From Turneriella parva DSM 21527 (GTDB lineage Bacteria > Spirochaetota > Leptospiria > Turneriellales > Turneriellaceae): DNA of 64,000 nt. Below are positions 57,929-64,000 of this stretch, piece after piece. The DNA is taken from the NCBI RefSeq assembly GCF_000266885.1, contig NC_018020.1, forward strand, positions 3,472,001 through 3,536,000. Direction: 5' to 3'. The notes under the pieces were generated by a model. The model did not search any database and was not told where the DNA came from. It saw nothing but the letters and a program-made list of their open reading frames with translations. The translations under genes and the position numbers were made by a program. The stretch's first letter is position 1. The number at the start of each line of letters is the position of its first letter.

Positions 57929-58144
57929 GCACAACAAAATTTACCTGCTGCGCTCGCTGCGGTGCCGTAGCTCCTCGCGTGCTCGGCCCTACGCGCCAGA
58001 AGATCGCGGACAAAGCACAAGCGGGACGCTTGTTTTGTGCTTTGCCGCGAGGCGCTGCGGGCACATTTGGTGACACAAGGCGGCTTTCCTGACTGCATTA
58101 ATGACACAAGTGTCACCAAACGTCAGGTAAATTCCGCGTTGCCC
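57929..58144 (+). repeat. attC site closing C67 (family G)
   Basis: 216 bp. R'' GCACAAC, R' GTTGCCC. C67 ends: start GTTGTGCGAAAGACGCGGGC, end GCCCGCGTCCATCGCACAAC. Confidence 0.88.
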
Positions 58145-58597
58145 GCCATGCCTATGCGTGGCCGAAAAATCGAAGAAGCACTGTGTGCAGTCGAGCTTGC
58201 GGCTTGCTATTTCGATGAAGATTAGAGTTTGGCGACTGGCGCAAGCACGACTGCTCGGTTGGCGCTCCTGGCTTCGAGGTTTGTCTGCGTCAGAAATCCT
58301 ACTATTTGTTCGAATTCGGTATTGCGGCTTCGCAGGCCACGCATCGCGAGCTTGAAAGCGATTGGCCCCTGCCCGATCGATGCGACGTCGCGCTCGCGAG
58401 TCGGCACGGCGGGCAACAGATTTTACAAGCTGCGCCGCCATTCGCTACGCGAAAGGCGTGCTCGGTCTCGGCGACGAAGATGCGTCGACGCCCGCAGCTC
58501 GGTTGAGCTTTATTGGCGGGCGCGCCGCAGTCGCCTTCGACACAATTTGGGTTGCGCCGAAGACGACGCACCCCAAATCGTCTTGTAAAATCAAGCG
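58139..58597 (+). repeat. Type E cassette, copy 18 (C68)
   Basis: 459 bp, attC 58411-58603. Subtype I; the 25-codon frame at its start is fully open here. Confidence 0.85.
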
Positions 58598-59055
58598 TTG
58601 CCCGCCATGCCTATGCGTGGCCGAAAAATAGCAGAGTACTGTGTGCAGTCGAGCTTGCGGCTTGCTATTTGGATGAAGATTAGAGTTTGGCGGCTGGCGC
58701 AAGCACGACTGCTCGGTGGGTGCTCCTGGCTTCGATGTTTGTCTGCGTCAGGAATCCTACTATTTGTTCAAATTCGGTATTGCGGCTTCGCAGGCCACGC
58801 ATCGCGAGCTTGAGAGCGATTGGCCCCTGCCCGATCAATGCGACGTCGCGCTCGCGAGTCGGCACGGCGGGCAACAGATTTTACAAGCTGCGCCGCCATT
58901 CGCTACGCGAAAGGCGTGCTCGGTCTCGGCGACGAAGATGCGTCGACGCCCGCAGCTCGGTTGAGCTTTATTGGCGGGCGCGCCGCAGTCGCCTTCGACA
59001 CAATTTGGGTTGCGCCGAAGACGCCGCACCCCAAATCGTCTTGCAAAATCAAACG
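58598..59055 (+). repeat. Type E cassette, copy 19 (C69)
   Basis: 458 bp, attC 58869-59061, the last attC in the window. A one-base loss (ATAGCAGAGTACTG) breaks the opening frame. Confidence 0.85.
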
Positions 59056-59088
59056 TTGTGCGACAAATCTGCAAAATTTTCCTTTTCT

Positions 59089-59109
59089 GTGCTGACCTCC
59101 TGTCAGCAC
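59089..59109 (+). repeat. TCC-loop hairpin 25
   Basis: GTGCTGAC-ctcct-GTCAGCAC, 34 bases after the last crossover: the segment that carries the mcc operon begins like an ordinary cassette. Confidence 0.68.
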
Positions 59110-59173: not shown

Positions 59174-59193
59174 AAATGACACATTTGTCATTT
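59174..59193 (+). promoter_or_regulatory. Palindrome upstream of mccA
   Basis: AAATGACA-catt-TGTCATTT, a perfect 8-bp inverted repeat 116 bases before the precursor gene. Possible regulator site. No convincing -35/-10 pair was found between it and the gene. Confidence 0.4.
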
Positions 59194-59309
59194 AGGCGAT
59201 TTAAGCCTTCGCGGAGATCTGAAAAAAAAATTGCCGCCGTGATCTGGAGGTTCCTATCCCGTAATGCCGAAAGTTTTTGCGGCACCAATAAAACCAATAG
59301 GAGAAACTT

Positions 59310-59363
59310 ATGAAAATCGAAAAAACAGCCAAGAAGATTACTCGCACTGGCGGCGCTAATTAA
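59310..59363 (+). CDS. mccA: MccA-like microcin C precursor peptide (17 aa)
   Basis: The 17 codons read MKIEKTAKKITRTGGAN. The last six residues, RTGGAN, parallel the E. coli microcin C precursor MRTGNAN, and the essential C-terminal Asn, to which MccB attaches the nucleotide, is present. AGGAGA lies 5 bases before the ATG. The gene is followed within 12 bases by a strong hairpin, then by the MccF, MccB, acetyltransferase, methyltransferase and exporter genes. The basic N-terminal extension (KIEKTAKKIT) could be a leader removed by peptidases or an uptake determinant. Longer MccA peptides ending in Asn are known from other bacteria; assignment rests on context plus the C-terminal motif. Confidence 0.85.
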   Translation: MKIEKTAKKITRTGGAN

Positions 59364-59374
59364 TTAGCTTCGCC

Positions 59375-59413
59375 GACTCAGCTCGATTTCGAGCTGAGTC
59401 TTTGAATTTTATA
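59375..59413 (+). terminator. Terminator-like hairpin between mccA and mccF
   Basis: GACTCAGCTCGA-tt-TCGAGCTGAGTC, a perfect 12-bp match (loop realistically four bases), followed by TTTGAATTTTAT. In E. coli a hairpin after mccA causes partial termination and an abundant short mccA message; the same role is inferred here. Confidence 0.7.
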
Positions 59414-59443
59414 CCTACTATCAAAACTTATCAAAGGTAATAT

Positions 59444-60451
59444 ATGACCAGATTATTTCCAAAAGCTTGGGTCGGTACCATGACCGTCGGAACCATCGCA
59501 CCTGCTAGCCCAGCCCCAAACAATTTCCGCCAAAGATATGAGAGAGGGATTCAGAATCTTAAAGCCTTAGGGCTCAAAGTTATCGAAGATAGGCGAGTTT
59601 TTGCCAAGAACGGTCATGTGGCTGGTACTGTCGGCGCGCGAGTCAGGCATATTCACGATCTATTTCAAAACCCGGAAGTAGGCATGATTATCAGCGCTAT
59701 CGGTGGTTTCAATTCGAATCAATTGCTGCGCCATATTGATTACGATCTGATTCAAAGAAATCCGAAAATCTTAGTTGGCTATAGTGATGTTACGAATTTG
59801 CACATGGCAATTACTAAACAAACGAATTTAGTCACTTTTTATGGGCCAGCAATAATGCCTCAATTTGGTGATTTCGGCGGACCAATCGATTTTACTCTCC
59901 GGAACTTTAAGAAAGCCTTTCAGCCGATTCCCATCGGCAGTCTACCAGTAAGCGAGGTCTTTACCGAAGAGCTTTTGCCTTGGGGGACGCACGATAGTCG
60001 CCCCAAACAAATGCAGCCCAATTCCGGCTGGATAATTTGCCACGAGGGGAAATCCGAAGGTTACTCTCTGGTAGCAAACCTGACCACCTTAATGATGACG
60101 ATTGCGACGCGCTGGGAACCAATATGGCAAGATAAAGTGCTTTTTCTCGAAGAGGAAGGGCAATCGACGCAGATAACTGATAGATGTCTTACACACTTAG
60201 AGAATATTGGCGTCTTTGAAAAGATAAAAGGAATCGTTTTCGGCAGATCATACGGCTACAAAGTAGTTGATTCTAAATACCCTTTGAAGCGAATACTGAG
60301 ACGGTTTGGTCGTCGCTACAAAATTCCGGTCATTGCAAACGTTGATTTCGGGCATTCTGACCCAGTTCTCACTCTTCCGCAGCTCATTCATGTCAAAGTG
60401 GATACTGCTAAGCAAGACGTTGCATTTACAGAGGCGGCCGTCGTTGCGTGA
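59444..60451 (+). CDS. mccF: MccF-like serine carboxypeptidase (immunity)
   Basis: 335 aa, the length of S66-family MccF/LD-carboxypeptidases. Landmarks: GTIAPASPA near residue 16, IISAIGGFNSNQLL near 82, the nucleophile Ser114 in VGYSDVTNLH, the Glu cluster LFLEEEG near 236, and His304 in NVDFGHSDP. MccF cleaves the amide between the C-terminal aspartate and the nucleotide in intact or processed microcin C, so it protects the producer. Placement directly after the precursor differs from E. coli, where mccF is apart from mccABCDE. Cytoplasmic, no signal peptide. A housekeeping LD-carboxypeptidase is the alternative, unlikely here. Confidence 0.92.
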   Translation: MTRLFPKAWVGTMTVGTIAPASPAPNNFRQRYERGIQNLKALGLKVIEDRRVFAKNGHVAGTVGARVRHIHDLFQNPEVGMIISAIGGFNSNQLLRHIDYDLIQRNPKILVGYSDVTNLHMAITKQTNLVTFYGPAIMPQFGDFGGPIDFTLRNFKKAFQPIPIGSLPVSEVFTEELLPWGTHDSRPKQMQPNSGWIICHEGKSEGYSLVANLTTLMMTIATRWEPIWQDKVLFLEEEGQSTQITDRCLTHLENIGVFEKIKGIVFGRSYGYKVVDSKYPLKRILRRFGRRYKIPVIANVDFGHSDPVLTLPQLIHVKVDTAKQDVAFTEAAVVA

Positions 60452-61544
60452 ACGCTTTCAGCTCAAGAAATTCTATCGCATATCGGATTATCAAAATTCG
60501 AACGTTAGCGAATTTCCACACCTTGTCTCCCTAGGTTATGACGAAATTCTCGCAAAGCAGGTTCAGGGAAATGACGTGACGCTTTCTTTGTTGGCCCATT
60601 TGGACGGTACTAAATCCTTGGGGGAAATTTGTGATATCCTGTCTAAGGCCCATAAGATTTCAGAAGCAGAAATTTTCCTCCAAGTTAGGGCATTGATTGA
60701 TGCTGGGTTGTTGCTTCCGGAACACAAATCTGAACTGTTATCGACGGAGGAAATTATTCGATATGATCGCCACCTTCTTTTCTATTCCATATTTACTGAG
60801 AATCCAATCTGGCATCAAGAGAAACTCGCAAAAGCAACTGTTGCAATCCTTGGTGTCGGCGGGATTGGTTCGTGGGTCGCGTACAATTTGGCATGCTGTG
60901 GCGTCGGTCGTTTGATTCTGATAGATTCAGACTTCATTGAAACGAGTAATTTAACGCGACAAATACTCTACGGGCCATCGGACGTTGGAAAATCGAAAAT
61001 AGAGGTTGCCGTAAATAGGCTGCGAAATTTTAATCCCTTTATCAATGTCATCGGCATTGAGAAAAAAATCCAAAACTACGGTGATCTTGACGAAATTCTG
61101 CCCGAAATCGATTTTGCGGGCATCGATTTCATCATCCAAAGTGCTGATAAACCGGAGAAAATTCATTTCTGGCTGGATGAATTTGCTTATCGCAGAAAAA
61201 TTTCCTACGCTTTTGCAGGTTATATCGAAATTCTTGGTGTGGTGGGCCCCATTGTAATTCCCGATAAAACTTCATGCTTAATGTGTGCCGAAGCGAAAAT
61301 TCATGACTTTGAAAACGCAGATCTGAAGGCCATACAAGATCGATTTCAAGCTCCGTCTTTCGGGCCGATAAACAGTATCGTTAGCTCGTTCGTCGTCTTG
61401 GAGACTATAAAGCTCCTTTTAGGTATGGAGGAATCGCAGCTTCTTAACCAACGGCTTACATACAATTTCCTAAAAAATCAAATAGATTACGAACCCTACC
61501 CAAAAAATCCAAATTGCACACAATGTGGGAGAAAAAATGATTAA
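60444..61544 (+). CDS. mccB: MccB-like peptide nucleotidyltransferase (ThiF/E1 fold)
   Basis: 366 aa from TTG 60444, which has GAGG 9 bases upstream and overlaps mccF by 8 bases; ATG 60390 is an alternative. N-terminal ~105 residues form a peptide-clamp-like domain (SLLAHLDGTKSLGEI). The E1-like core has the nucleotide loop VAILGVGGIGSWVA (about 133-146), ILIDSDFIETSNLTRQIL, SADKP near 233 (Mg-binding Asp) and two Cys pairs (CLMC 278-281, CTQC 358-361) for zinc. The block RYDRHLLFY...SNLTRQ...DVGKSK closely parallels E. coli MccB, which adenylates the C-terminal Asn of MccA using two ATP. Confidence 0.95.
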   Translation: MRERFQLKKFYRISDYQNSNVSEFPHLVSLGYDEILAKQVQGNDVTLSLLAHLDGTKSLGEICDILSKAHKISEAEIFLQVRALIDAGLLLPEHKSELLSTEEIIRYDRHLLFYSIFTENPIWHQEKLAKATVAILGVGGIGSWVAYNLACCGVGRLILIDSDFIETSNLTRQILYGPSDVGKSKIEVAVNRLRNFNPFINVIGIEKKIQNYGDLDEILPEIDFAGIDFIIQSADKPEKIHFWLDEFAYRRKISYAFAGYIEILGVVGPIVIPDKTSCLMCAEAKIHDFENADLKAIQDRFQAPSFGPINSIVSSFVVLETIKLLLGMEESQLLNQRLTYNFLKNQIDYEPYPKNPNCTQCGRKND

Positions 61545-62190
61545 ACCTGGGCCAAATCTTTGCATGCTACCGATGGAGGAAAGGCATGTGCCATTCCTTC
61601 AAAACCTCCAGATGGATTGGGATAATGCTGATCTGTACAGGATGCGTAATGTCATTTATTCAGTCTTTGAAACTGTTGCTTGGTATAGAAACGTTTTATT
61701 GAATAATGAATCGCTTCGCTATTTTATTATTGCTGCGAATGATGATCCTAATAAAAATCCTGTCGGGCTGGTGTATTACTCAAATATCAGTCAAAAGGCA
61801 AGGGTCATTGAACAAGGCATCTACCTAGAAAAAAAATTGCGAGCCAAACCCACGGCCATTTTGGAGGTAATCCACATATCTGCGCGTTATGTATTTGAAA
61901 CGTTGAATTACCGAAAAATCAAAATGCACCTGACTGAAAGAAGAAAGAGTATCATGCGTGCTTTACAGGCAATAGATTGGGTTGTGGAAGGTCGATTCAT
62001 CAAAGAGGTTTTTTTCTGGGGAAAATACTACGACGAGTACCGATTAAGTCTTTTCGATGAGAGTTATCATAAGCTCGTTGCAGAATTTGAAGCATCTGGG
62101 AACGATTACCAAAGATATTTAAAAGCCCGGTTAAAAAATATGCCGTCCGCAGACATTAAGAGTGCAACGTTCCAAATTGGTGGCGATTGA
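61537..62190 (+). CDS. GNAT acetyltransferase, MccE C-domain-like
   Basis: 217 aa, RimL/GNAT type: strands FIIAAND and GLVYYSNIS, then EQGIYLEKKLRAK, AILEVIHISARYVFETLNYRKIKMHL and WVVEGRFIKEVFFWGKYYDEYRLSLF. In E. coli the GNAT domain of MccE acetylates processed microcin C (aspartamide-adenylate), giving self-immunity; here it stands alone without the PLP decarboxylase half. It starts at ATG 61537 with GGGAG upstream and overlaps mccB by 8 bases. Precursor-modifying acetylation is the alternative. Confidence 0.82.
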   Translation: MIKPGPNLCMLPMEERHVPFLQNLQMDWDNADLYRMRNVIYSVFETVAWYRNVLLNNESLRYFIIAANDDPNKNPVGLVYYSNISQKARVIEQGIYLEKKLRAKPTAILEVIHISARYVFETLNYRKIKMHLTERRKSIMRALQAIDWVVEGRFIKEVFFWGKYYDEYRLSLFDESYHKLVAEFEASGNDYQRYLKARLKNMPSADIKSATFQIGGD

Positions 62191-62924
62191 TGCAAACCGA
62201 TTACTTTAATCTGTTGGCTAAGTTCAACCACGCTTACTTACATCCCGGTGGCTTGGCCGCAACAGAGACATTACTGTCATGGGTGAATTGGCAAGCTTCT
62301 CCAAAGATACTCGAAGTCGCATGCGGTGTCGGCCGAACATCACTAATGGCTGCAAAGCGAGGTGCCGCTGCGGTCATAGGCATCGATGAAAGTGCGGGCA
62401 TGATAGCATCAGCAAAAGAGAACTTGAAAAGGCAAAATATTCAAAACGTGAATTTCACAGTGCTGCAAGCTGAAGCGAATGCGCAACCTGATAAGGATTA
62501 CGATGTTGTAATTTGCGAGGGGGCCACTGCATTTTTCTCTAATCGAAAAAAAGGGATTTCGGAAATCAAACGAGTCTTAAAACCGGGTGGCATATTTCTG
62601 ACGACGGAGTTCTATTATAAAGAACGGCCTCCAGAAGCTCTGATTCAGAAAATGAGCGATTTAATGGGGAAGAAATTTGAACCATATAGCTTAGATGATT
62701 GGCTTGCCTTATATGGAGAAACAGGGTTCACCATTGGAGAGATTATTTCGACTCCACGGAATAAGCCATGGTCTCGTTTTTTTCGTGAATGGCGGGAGAA
62801 TATGCATTTTTTCCTGTTCTCAAAATGGCATCCTGATAGACCGAAATTAAATGAATATTTTAGCGCATTTCGTGAAAATGCAAAATACCTAGCGGCCTGC
62901 TCGTACAAGCTTATTCGTTCATGA
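62190..62924 (+). CDS. SAM-dependent methyltransferase of the mcc operon
   Basis: 244 aa, class I Rossmann methyltransferase: motif I ILEVACGVGRTSLMA at 40-54, VIGIDESAGMIASAKENL, then YDVVICEGATAFF and IKRVLKPGGIFLTTEFYYKE. Start ATG shares one base with the preceding TGA. In other mcc operons related proteins transfer aminopropyl (MccD) or carboxymethyl (MccS) groups to the nucleotide; this one lacks the obvious partner (decarboxylase or Cx-SAM synthase) inside the window, so a plain methyl mark is possible. Partner genes may lie beyond the right edge. Confidence 0.8.
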   Translation: MQTDYFNLLAKFNHAYLHPGGLAATETLLSWVNWQASPKILEVACGVGRTSLMAAKRGAAAVIGIDESAGMIASAKENLKRQNIQNVNFTVLQAEANAQPDKDYDVVICEGATAFFSNRKKGISEIKRVLKPGGIFLTTEFYYKERPPEALIQKMSDLMGKKFEPYSLDDWLALYGETGFTIGEIISTPRNKPWSRFFREWRENMHFFLFSKWHPDRPKLNEYFSAFRENAKYLAACSYKLIRS

Positions 62925-64000
62925 AACTCTTTCATATACATGTAGTGATGACCACTTCCCTTTTTAGCAGCCTCATTTGGGGCATGATGCTCCCAAACTT
63001 AACCCCCTATTTCAGTGCAAAGGGTTTTGAAATAATCTCAATCGGCCTGCTATTTAGTATTTCAGTTCTATCGCGGGTCTTTTCTCAGTATTTTTTTGGC
63101 GCCCTAATTTCACGGTATGGATTCGTAGTTGCGGGTATGGTAAATGCTTTCGGCATATTCTTATTAAGCCTCCTGCTGATAGATGAATTTGAACATCCTA
63201 TAAAACTCATTCTAGCCGGTATAGGTTTTGGCTTGATCAATGGAATTTTCTTCGTAACACTGGATACAATAATCCGAAGTGTCTCTGAGAGTCCCGCGAA
63301 ATTATTTTCACTTAGAATCGTTCTTGTTGGCATAGGCTTGACGGTGGGCCCCATTTTGAATCATTTCCTGCTTCTCATTTCTGTCGAAAGCTGTCTTAAA
63401 TTGCAATTGTTGGTCGCGATTTTGATTTCAATTTATTTCTTTTTCTTCCCGAAATCATCAATGCTGCTTGAAACACGACGGACTTTGAGTTTCTCACCTA
63501 ACCTCAGAATCGTAATAATTGCACTACCCGTCTTTACGGCTCAAATTATTTATGGCGCCTTAGAGCCCATATTACCGTTATACGCTCTTAATGAGATAAA
63601 AGATCCAAAAATGGCACCGATTTTCTTCTCTGTGAACTTTATTGCTTTTATCATTGGTCAAGGATTCGGCCTGATTCTCCAGAAATTCTTAAAAATCGAG
63701 AATATATTCATCTTAGCTTTTACCCTGATGGGATTAAGTTTCTGCATTTTTTCGCTGCAAACGAATCCATTTTTCTTCTACCTATGGATAAGTCTCGAAA
63801 GTATATCAGCCTCCATCCTTTTTTTAACTGGAAAGAGCATCATCGGTTCATACTTCTCAAAAGAGGAATTTGCTAATGCCTACGGTCAGTATGCAGCTTT
63901 CACGGATTTTGGTCTATTCATTGCGCCTGTCATCTTCACTTATTGGTACCAACATATTTCCGCCAAATACATATTACCTTCTATAGCAGGTTTTGTGCTT
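62921..64000 (+). CDS. mccC: MFS exporter, MccC-like, cut by window edge
   Basis: 360 codons are visible without a stop. About ten to eleven hydrophobic helices of the major facilitator pattern, e.g. VMTTSLFSSLIWGMMLP, ISIGLLFSISVLSRVFSQYFFGALISRYGF (loop-2-like acid/aromatic region) and LAGIGFGLINGIFFVTL. The ATG overlaps the methyltransferase stop codon (ATGA). By analogy with MccC it should pump the finished microcin out and add to immunity. Confidence 0.87.
   Translation, partial: MKLFHIHVVMTTSLFSSLIWGMMLPNLTPYFSAKGFEIISIGLLFSISVLSRVFSQYFFGALISRYGFVVAGMVNAFGIFLLSLLLIDEFEHPIKLILAGIGFGLINGIFFVTLDTIIRSVSESPAKLFSLRIVLVGIGLTVGPILNHFLLLISVESCLKLQLLVAILISIYFFFFPKSSMLLETRRTLSFSPNLRIVIIALPVFTAQIIYGALEPILPLYALNEIKDPKMAPIFFSVNFIAFIIGQGFGLILQKFLKIENIFILAFTLMGLSFCIFSLQTNPFFFYLWISLESISASILFLTGKSIIGSYFSKEEFANAYGQYAAFTDFGLFIAPVIFTYWYQHISAKYILPSIAGFVL

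Follow-up and report, generated by a model that had tools for sequence, protein, structure and literature searches.

Near the right-hand end of a 64,000-nucleotide stretch of the Turneriella parva H^T (DSM 21527) chromosome, here called the window, lies a six-gene operon resembling the clusters that make microcin C (McC). Positions are local to the window, whose first letter corresponds to G000:C1:3472001 and whose last to 3536000; coordinates prefixed G000:C1 refer to the contig. T. parva is a free-living, biosafety-level-1 member of the Leptospiraceae (PMC3746428), and an earlier note on this DNA had rightly proposed a spirochaete host. The genome comprises 4,409,302 bp on two contigs (4,384,015 and 25,287 bp, sizes as published) with a GC content of 53.6% (PMC3746428), compared with 42.3% for the operon.

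All genes lie on the + strand in the order mccA, hairpin, mccF, mccB, GNAT acetyltransferase, methyltransferase and MFS transporter. The earlier note had read the locus as a 17-codon gene ending RTGGAN, a hairpin and a series of overlapping MccF-like, MccB-like, GNAT, methyltransferase and MFS genes, and this description stands: overlaps of 1-8 bases join consecutive genes among the five large ones (mccF to MFS), while mccA and mccF do not overlap. All six reading frames are open; their starts and stops overlap, and their ribosome sites are good. The MFS gene runs past the window end, and the rightward extension that the note had called for shows it to be complete on the contig. The features are as follows.

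58869-59061, + strand: attC of the preceding cassette (R'' GGGCAAC ... R' GTTGTGC), of the same family as the 207 attC left ends on this strand of the array described below
59056-64154, + strand: integron cassette with the entire operon, body of 5,099 nt with complementary ends; its own attC extends to about 64342, beyond the window
59089-59109, no strand: perfect inverted repeat GTGCTGAC-CTCCT-GTCAGCAC in the leader, a possible regulatory hairpin
59174-59193, no strand: perfect inverted repeat AAATGACA-CATT-TGTCATTT in the leader, a possible operator
59299-59303, + strand: Shine-Dalgarno (SD) sequence AGGAG of mccA, six bases 5' of the ATG
59310-59363, + strand: mccA, precursor MKIEKTAKKITRTGGAN, 17 amino acids with C-terminal Asn, from the open reading frame (ORF) and SD screen
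59375-59400, + strand: terminator or attenuator hairpin between mccA and the enzyme genes, from folding against shuffles
59444-60451, + strand: mccF-type S66 peptidase, 335 amino acids, predicted self-immunity (175 bits to MccF; triad and Trp186 equivalent)
60444-61544, + strand: mccB-type RRE and ThiF adenylyltransferase, 366 amino acids, TTG start (sequence, trees, residues, fold)
61537-62190, + strand: GNAT acetyltransferase, 217 amino acids, SpeG/RimL-like by its matches, predicted second immunity or tailoring function
62190-62924, + strand: class I S-adenosylmethionine (SAM)-dependent methyltransferase, 244 amino acids, predicted from its matches to be a tailoring enzyme
62921-64072, + strand (past the window end at 64000): MFS transporter, 383 amino acids, predicted from its matches to be an exporter

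The precursor gene and its leader

The mini-gene mccA was recovered by a screen for ORFs of 5-60 amino acids with an ATG, GTG or TTG start, an SD sequence and a C-terminal Asn. The leader yields exactly one such ORF. Dinucleotide-shuffled leaders gave any candidate in 4.7% of cases, and one with ATG and a 5-nt SD in 0.4%. Among 9,514 mini-ORF stops on both strands of 320 kb, mccA alone matches RTGNAN at four or more of the six positions (5/6). The same screen applied to E. coli returned MRTGNAN together with a second, TTG-started candidate, and for most relatives of the McC clusters it returned heptapeptides (among them MNSTARN, MLKLGGN, MRFTANN, MDHSMNN and MNTVPGN). A small precursor gene beside mccB, with a strong SD and a C-terminal Asn, is thus present, as in McC clusters.

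MccB of E. coli depends on Thr3 and Asn7 of MccA (PMC12250964), and the T. parva precursor retains equivalents of both. Its last seven residues, TRTGGAN, compare with MRTGNAN in E. coli, Thr taking the place of formyl-Met, and they follow a basic leader of 10 residues. Given this match and the kept Thr and Asn, the precursor is an E. coli-like core preceded by ten additional residues. In a 2019 survey, precursors of 7-8 residues accompany the main MccB clade and those of 17-56 residues another clade (PMC6495379); the 17-residue lower bound could itself be T. parva. Longer McC precursors are thought to undergo trimming, the 42-residue Yersinia precursor being reduced to 11 residues, a step attributed to TldD/E by the title of a paper cited in PMC12250964. 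The T. parva genome encodes a TldD/TldE pair, and leader trimming is likely for a precursor that exceeds eight residues and ends in Asn.

The hairpin that follows mccA has a perfect 11-bp stem and a T-rich tail (TTTGAATTTT), and folds well beyond its shuffles (z = -6.0). A terminator likewise sits between mccA and mccB in E. coli (PMC6495379). A scan restricted to the sigma-70 consensus found no sigma-70-like promoter on the + strand of the leader.

Proteins predicted to serve synthesis, immunity and export

Bit scores of the MccB-type protein are 156 against E. coli MccB, 89 against PaaA and 71 against MoeB, and whether the PDB is compared by sequence or by fold, E. coli MccB matches best. 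An AlphaFold2 model (pLDDT 80, with the N-terminal winged-helix/RRE-like domain at lower confidence) gave 24 top fold matches that are all E. coli MccB, followed by PaaA and then by E1, ThiF and MoeB proteins. The protein combines the N-terminal RRE-like domain with a ThiF domain carrying the ATP/Mg residues and the Zn-binding Cys4 set, the architecture that defines the MccB type. Equivalents of the catalytic residues R157, K170 and D214, of Tyr239 and of four Cys are conserved. The protein keeps 48/69 positions conserved in the heptapeptide clade, the highest value among the tested ThiF sequences outside that clade; at clade-specific positions it keeps 8/26, on par with presumed long-type enzymes (6-9). 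In phylogenetic trees it falls inside a clade of RRE-ThiF enzymes for ribosomally synthesized and post-translationally modified peptides (RiPPs) with support of 100/98. The MoeB clade is separate (100/98) and holds T. parva's own MoeB/ThiF-type genes. Clustering with ThiF/MoeB enzymes, the outcome that the earlier note had set against its own assignment, was therefore not seen, and trees and scores rule out a housekeeping MoeB/ThiF identity. Sequence, residues, fold and trees together make it well supported, at the level of comparison and modeling, that the T. parva protein works like MccB; the trees are compatible with a place either inside or outside the known McC clades. A single-protein scan of genome contigs found no close relatives of the operon, and a separate alignment scan yielded only relatives whose identity across the domain did not exceed about 36%.

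The S66 protein encoded upstream of mccB scores 175 bits to MccF and 76 to the LD-carboxypeptidase 5z01. Equivalents of E. coli MccF S118, E243 and H311, which we take to be its Ser-Glu-His catalytic triad, and of W186, presumably the nucleotide-stacking Trp of the E. coli structure, are conserved. No S66 match at E <= 1e-10 was found in 47 other genomes of T. parva's class, so the mccF-type gene is not a housekeeping gene of the lineage; scores and class-wide rarity exclude an LD-carboxypeptidase (LdcA) identity. Among the dedicated immunity genes of McC clusters (MccF, MccE2, MccG or MccH), the operon thus carries, as judged from sequence, one of the MccF type. In plasmids, no mcc context surrounds the best matches of the S66 protein or of the methyltransferase.

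The GNAT protein is SpeG/RimL-like, with SpeG nearest. It has no match to E. coli MccE, so orthology to MccE2 is unsupported, and a role in immunity or tailoring stays a prediction. No carboxy-SAM synthase was found among the best matches of the operon proteins, and the MccB-type protein ends right after its ThiF domain; the C-terminal transferase domain of MccB and the MccS protein that mark carboxymethyl-cytidine McC systems are both absent.

The integron array and the operon cassette

The earlier note recognized the operon and missed its setting, a chromosomal integron (G000:C1:3455166-3668790) of single orientation with attC sites of about 180-215 bp. Across G000:C1:3440001-3760000, 207 attC left ends lie on the + strand and 1 on the other; they span 3456712 to 3668761, or about 212 kb, and the whole window falls inside the array. 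This size is comparable to that of the largest Vibrio superintegrons. Cassette ends are complementary at 8 or more of 10 bases in 171 of the 184 cassettes with both ends seen (93%), compared with 13% for shuffled partners. A tyrosine recombinase is encoded at the left end (G000:C1:3455166-3455999, - strand; L120:15166-15999), about 0.7 kb from the first attC, and matches the XerC-like 4a8e (133 bits) and IntI4 (122 bits), a resemblance about equal for the two types.

The mcc operon fills exactly one cassette of this array. The R' of the preceding attC (GTT at 59055-59057) forms its left recombination point, and its ends, GTTGTGCGAC and GTCGCACAAC, are complementary at 19/20 bases. The end core GTTGTGCGAC occurs once among the 184 cassettes, and no other cassette pairs equally well with either end. 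The bottom strand of the cassette's attC folds as the single-strand hairpin expected of such sites (z = -6.5). Complementary ends at attC sites within an array of one orientation are what define an integron cassette. Second-longest in the array, where well-matched cassettes have a median of 593 nt, it lies about 75 kb from the integron promoter, deep in the array; it lacks the transposase-like ORF present in the longest cassette. Standard accounts describe one ORF per cassette, at times two or none (PMC8618304), and in 2013 Treponema was termed the sole spirochaete clade carrying integrons (PMC3607928). Nine copies of the T. parva attC motif are spread over two contigs of a congener genome (G062), so this integron family predates the type strain. 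Congeners share the attC family but not the MccF gene.

With Vibrio-type sedentary chromosomal (super)integrons the array shares hundreds of cassettes in one orientation, complementary ends and a tyrosine recombinase at one end. It differs in its long attC sites (about 180-215 bp), its many repeated ORF-less cassettes, a recombinase apparently without the IntI-specific insert, and the presence of a six-gene antibiotic operon as one cassette.

Other cassettes were noted in passing. Near-identical cassettes with no obvious gene recur by the dozen throughout the array, some of about 279 bp (ends GTTGCCCGCC; 42 of the paired cassettes), others of about 374 bp (ends GTTCTATGTC; 24 of the paired cassettes); examples in the window are 58139-58417 and 58598-58875. 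A 3.6-kb cassette (G000:C1:3618492-3622064) holds ORFs resembling a phosphoribosyltransferase and a transposase along with a reverse transcriptase (YADD motif), and is possibly a retron-type system. An 8.8-kb cassette (G000:C1:3461183-3470016) with ten complementary end bases carries, as named by eye, acyl-CoA dehydrogenase-like and ferritin-like proteins, a TetR-type regulator, a peroxiredoxin and a transposase; multi-gene cassettes in this array are therefore not unique to mcc.

A probable microcin C-type operon and the alternatives

The locus is probably a complete microcin C-like (peptidyl-nucleotide) biosynthesis and immunity operon carried as one cassette of the T. parva chromosomal integron. 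This reading is favored because a precursor with C-terminal Asn and strong SD is statistically isolated, and because the combination of precursor, terminator, acetyltransferase, predicted exporter and MccF-type immunity gene is in keeping with a microcin C-type cluster. With E. coli McC/C7 (mccABCDE plus mccF) the operon shares a short precursor gene with a strong SD and a terminator 3' of mccA, together with an MccB-type enzyme, a predicted MFS exporter, a SAM-dependent enzyme, a GNAT protein and an MccF-type peptidase, the cores being RTGGAN and RTGNAN. It differs in the length of its precursor (17 amino acids instead of 7), in its A-F-B-GNAT-MT-MFS order on one strand (MT, methyltransferase), in an MccB 36% identical to that of E. 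coli, and in its carriage by a chromosomal integron cassette rather than a plasmid.

Several results weigh against this interpretation. In the best tree the MccB-type protein lies outside the heptapeptide clade on a long branch, and it is not placed inside the two McC clades, although forced joining with them is not rejected (p-AU 0.26). The methyltransferase scores 57 bits to YcgJ and 35 to MccD, and the MFS protein has no detectable sequence similarity to MccC. No MccE decarboxylase was found among the operon genes. In the plasmid set, the S66 protein is nearest to the product of a stand-alone Cytobacillus gene (37% identity, compared with 32% to E. coli MccF). Finally, the recombinase scores under the TIGR02249 cut-off with model positions 179-235 unmatched, and so may lack the IntI-specific insert.

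Some of these points bear on the kind of cluster. With higher scores from generic methyltransferases, a true MccD is unsupported; the MccD and the N-terminal decarboxylase of MccE that characterize the E. coli type are thus not in evidence, aminopropylation of that type is not expected, and the operon is not a copy of mccABCDE. The earlier note's claim of a complete or near-complete mcc cluster is supported, with the qualification that MccE is missing and the methyltransferase is not closest to MccD. With the long-precursor clusters of Yersinia pseudotuberculosis (42 amino acids), Bacillus amyloliquefaciens (19) and Hyalangium minutum (36/46), the operon has in common a precursor of more than eight residues with a terminal Asn and, in the host, TldD/E. 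It differs from them in having an MccB without the fused carboxymethyl-cytidine domain, no MccS and an E. coli-like core, and the trees do not put its MccB with the candidate long-type enzymes (L086, L087 and L090, a clade whose assignment is itself presumptive).

A ThiF-assembled RiPP of other chemistry, in which the activated C-terminus would give a succinimide, cyclized or amidated product without a nucleotide, as in pantocin- or enterofaecin-type systems, is the strongest alternative and an unlikely one. RRE-ThiF enzymes of different chemistry exist (PaaA, EnfB; PMC12250964), the T. parva enzyme has a long branch and lies outside the McC clades that the trees resolve, and the GNAT, methyltransferase and MFS proteins belong to generic families. 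Pantocin A-type clusters share the RRE and ThiF enzyme fold; PaaA, however, acts on Glu-Glu and has neither the Mg-binding Asp nor the Tyr239 equivalent present in T. parva, and pantocin clusters have no MccF. The T. parva enzyme is nearer to MccB than to PaaA in sequence, fold and key residues, its precursor has the C-terminal Asn and E. coli-like core, and the MccF-type peptidase keeps the triad and the Trp to which we ascribe nucleotide stacking.

A decayed or silent cassette, whose intact genes would be stored in the array some 75 kb from the integron promoter and yield no product, is less probable still. Its position deep in the array and the negative promoter scan would suit such storage, but that scan covered the sigma-70 consensus only, the six frames are all open and have good ribosome sites, their starts and stops overlapping, and a leader with its own terminator and two perfect inverted repeats is unlike a promoterless single-gene cassette. 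A housekeeping MoeB/ThiF gene beside an LD-carboxypeptidase, with a coincidental mini-ORF, can be dismissed: S66 and ThiF folds are common to housekeeping enzymes, but trees and statistics contradict this account, T. parva has separate MoeB/ThiF-type genes in the MoeB clade, the MccB-type protein has an RRE-like domain at its N-terminus, and the mini-ORF is 1 of 9,514.

Under the microcin C-type reading, the parts are present in the sequence and the chemical steps follow the named protein families. A mini-message terminated early would be made in excess, read-through supplying the enzymes. MccB would activate the C-terminal Asn with two nucleoside triphosphates to form an isoasparaginyl-N-P-nucleotide, a chemistry proposed for T. 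parva by analogy. The methyltransferase may decorate the product, a leader protease, perhaps TldD/TldE, may trim it, and the MFS protein would export it. A target cell would import and degrade it to an aspartyl-nucleotide inhibiting aspartyl-tRNA synthetase (AspRS); in the producer, MccF would cleave the product and GNAT may acetylate it. Cassette recombination would let the entire trait move as a unit. The fuller picture, in which biosynthesis, export and immunity move as a single cassette and the product is a new peptidyl-nucleotide whose core is E. coli-like, whose leader can be removed and whose SAM-dependent decoration is new, stands at about even chances.

McC-like clusters are a known kind. 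In the readable literature, no report of Turneriella with a microcin or with an integron was found. Within that scope, a spirochaete as host, a long precursor with an E. coli-like core and the A-F-B-GNAT-MT-MFS layout are new, and the foremost novelty is the carriage of an mcc operon as one integron cassette. The earlier note knew of no mcc cluster in this host group, and none surfaced in that literature. Another spirochaete, Brevinematales bacterium Ch60 (Spirochaetota; L047 / L043:5553-7639), nevertheless encodes an MccB-like enzyme that belongs to the heptapeptide McC clade and, after it, an MFS protein, near a contig end where no mccA was found, and T. parva may therefore not be the sole spirochaete case.

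Integrons are known for carrying resistance genes, and their cassettes usually hold a single gene. The present cassette suggests that they can move antibiotic-making operons as well; if true, it would be the first antibiotic pathway, beyond a mere resistance gene, mobilized by an integron. A six-gene antibiotic operon with its immunity in one cassette would mean that integrons can take up entire warfare traits and pass them on, and would offer a concrete route for McC clusters to reach distant phyla. A natural precursor in which a longer N-terminus is joined to the E. coli McC core bears on the question of why most McC precursors have seven residues, and spirochaetes become candidate producers of Trojan-horse inhibitors of AspRS.

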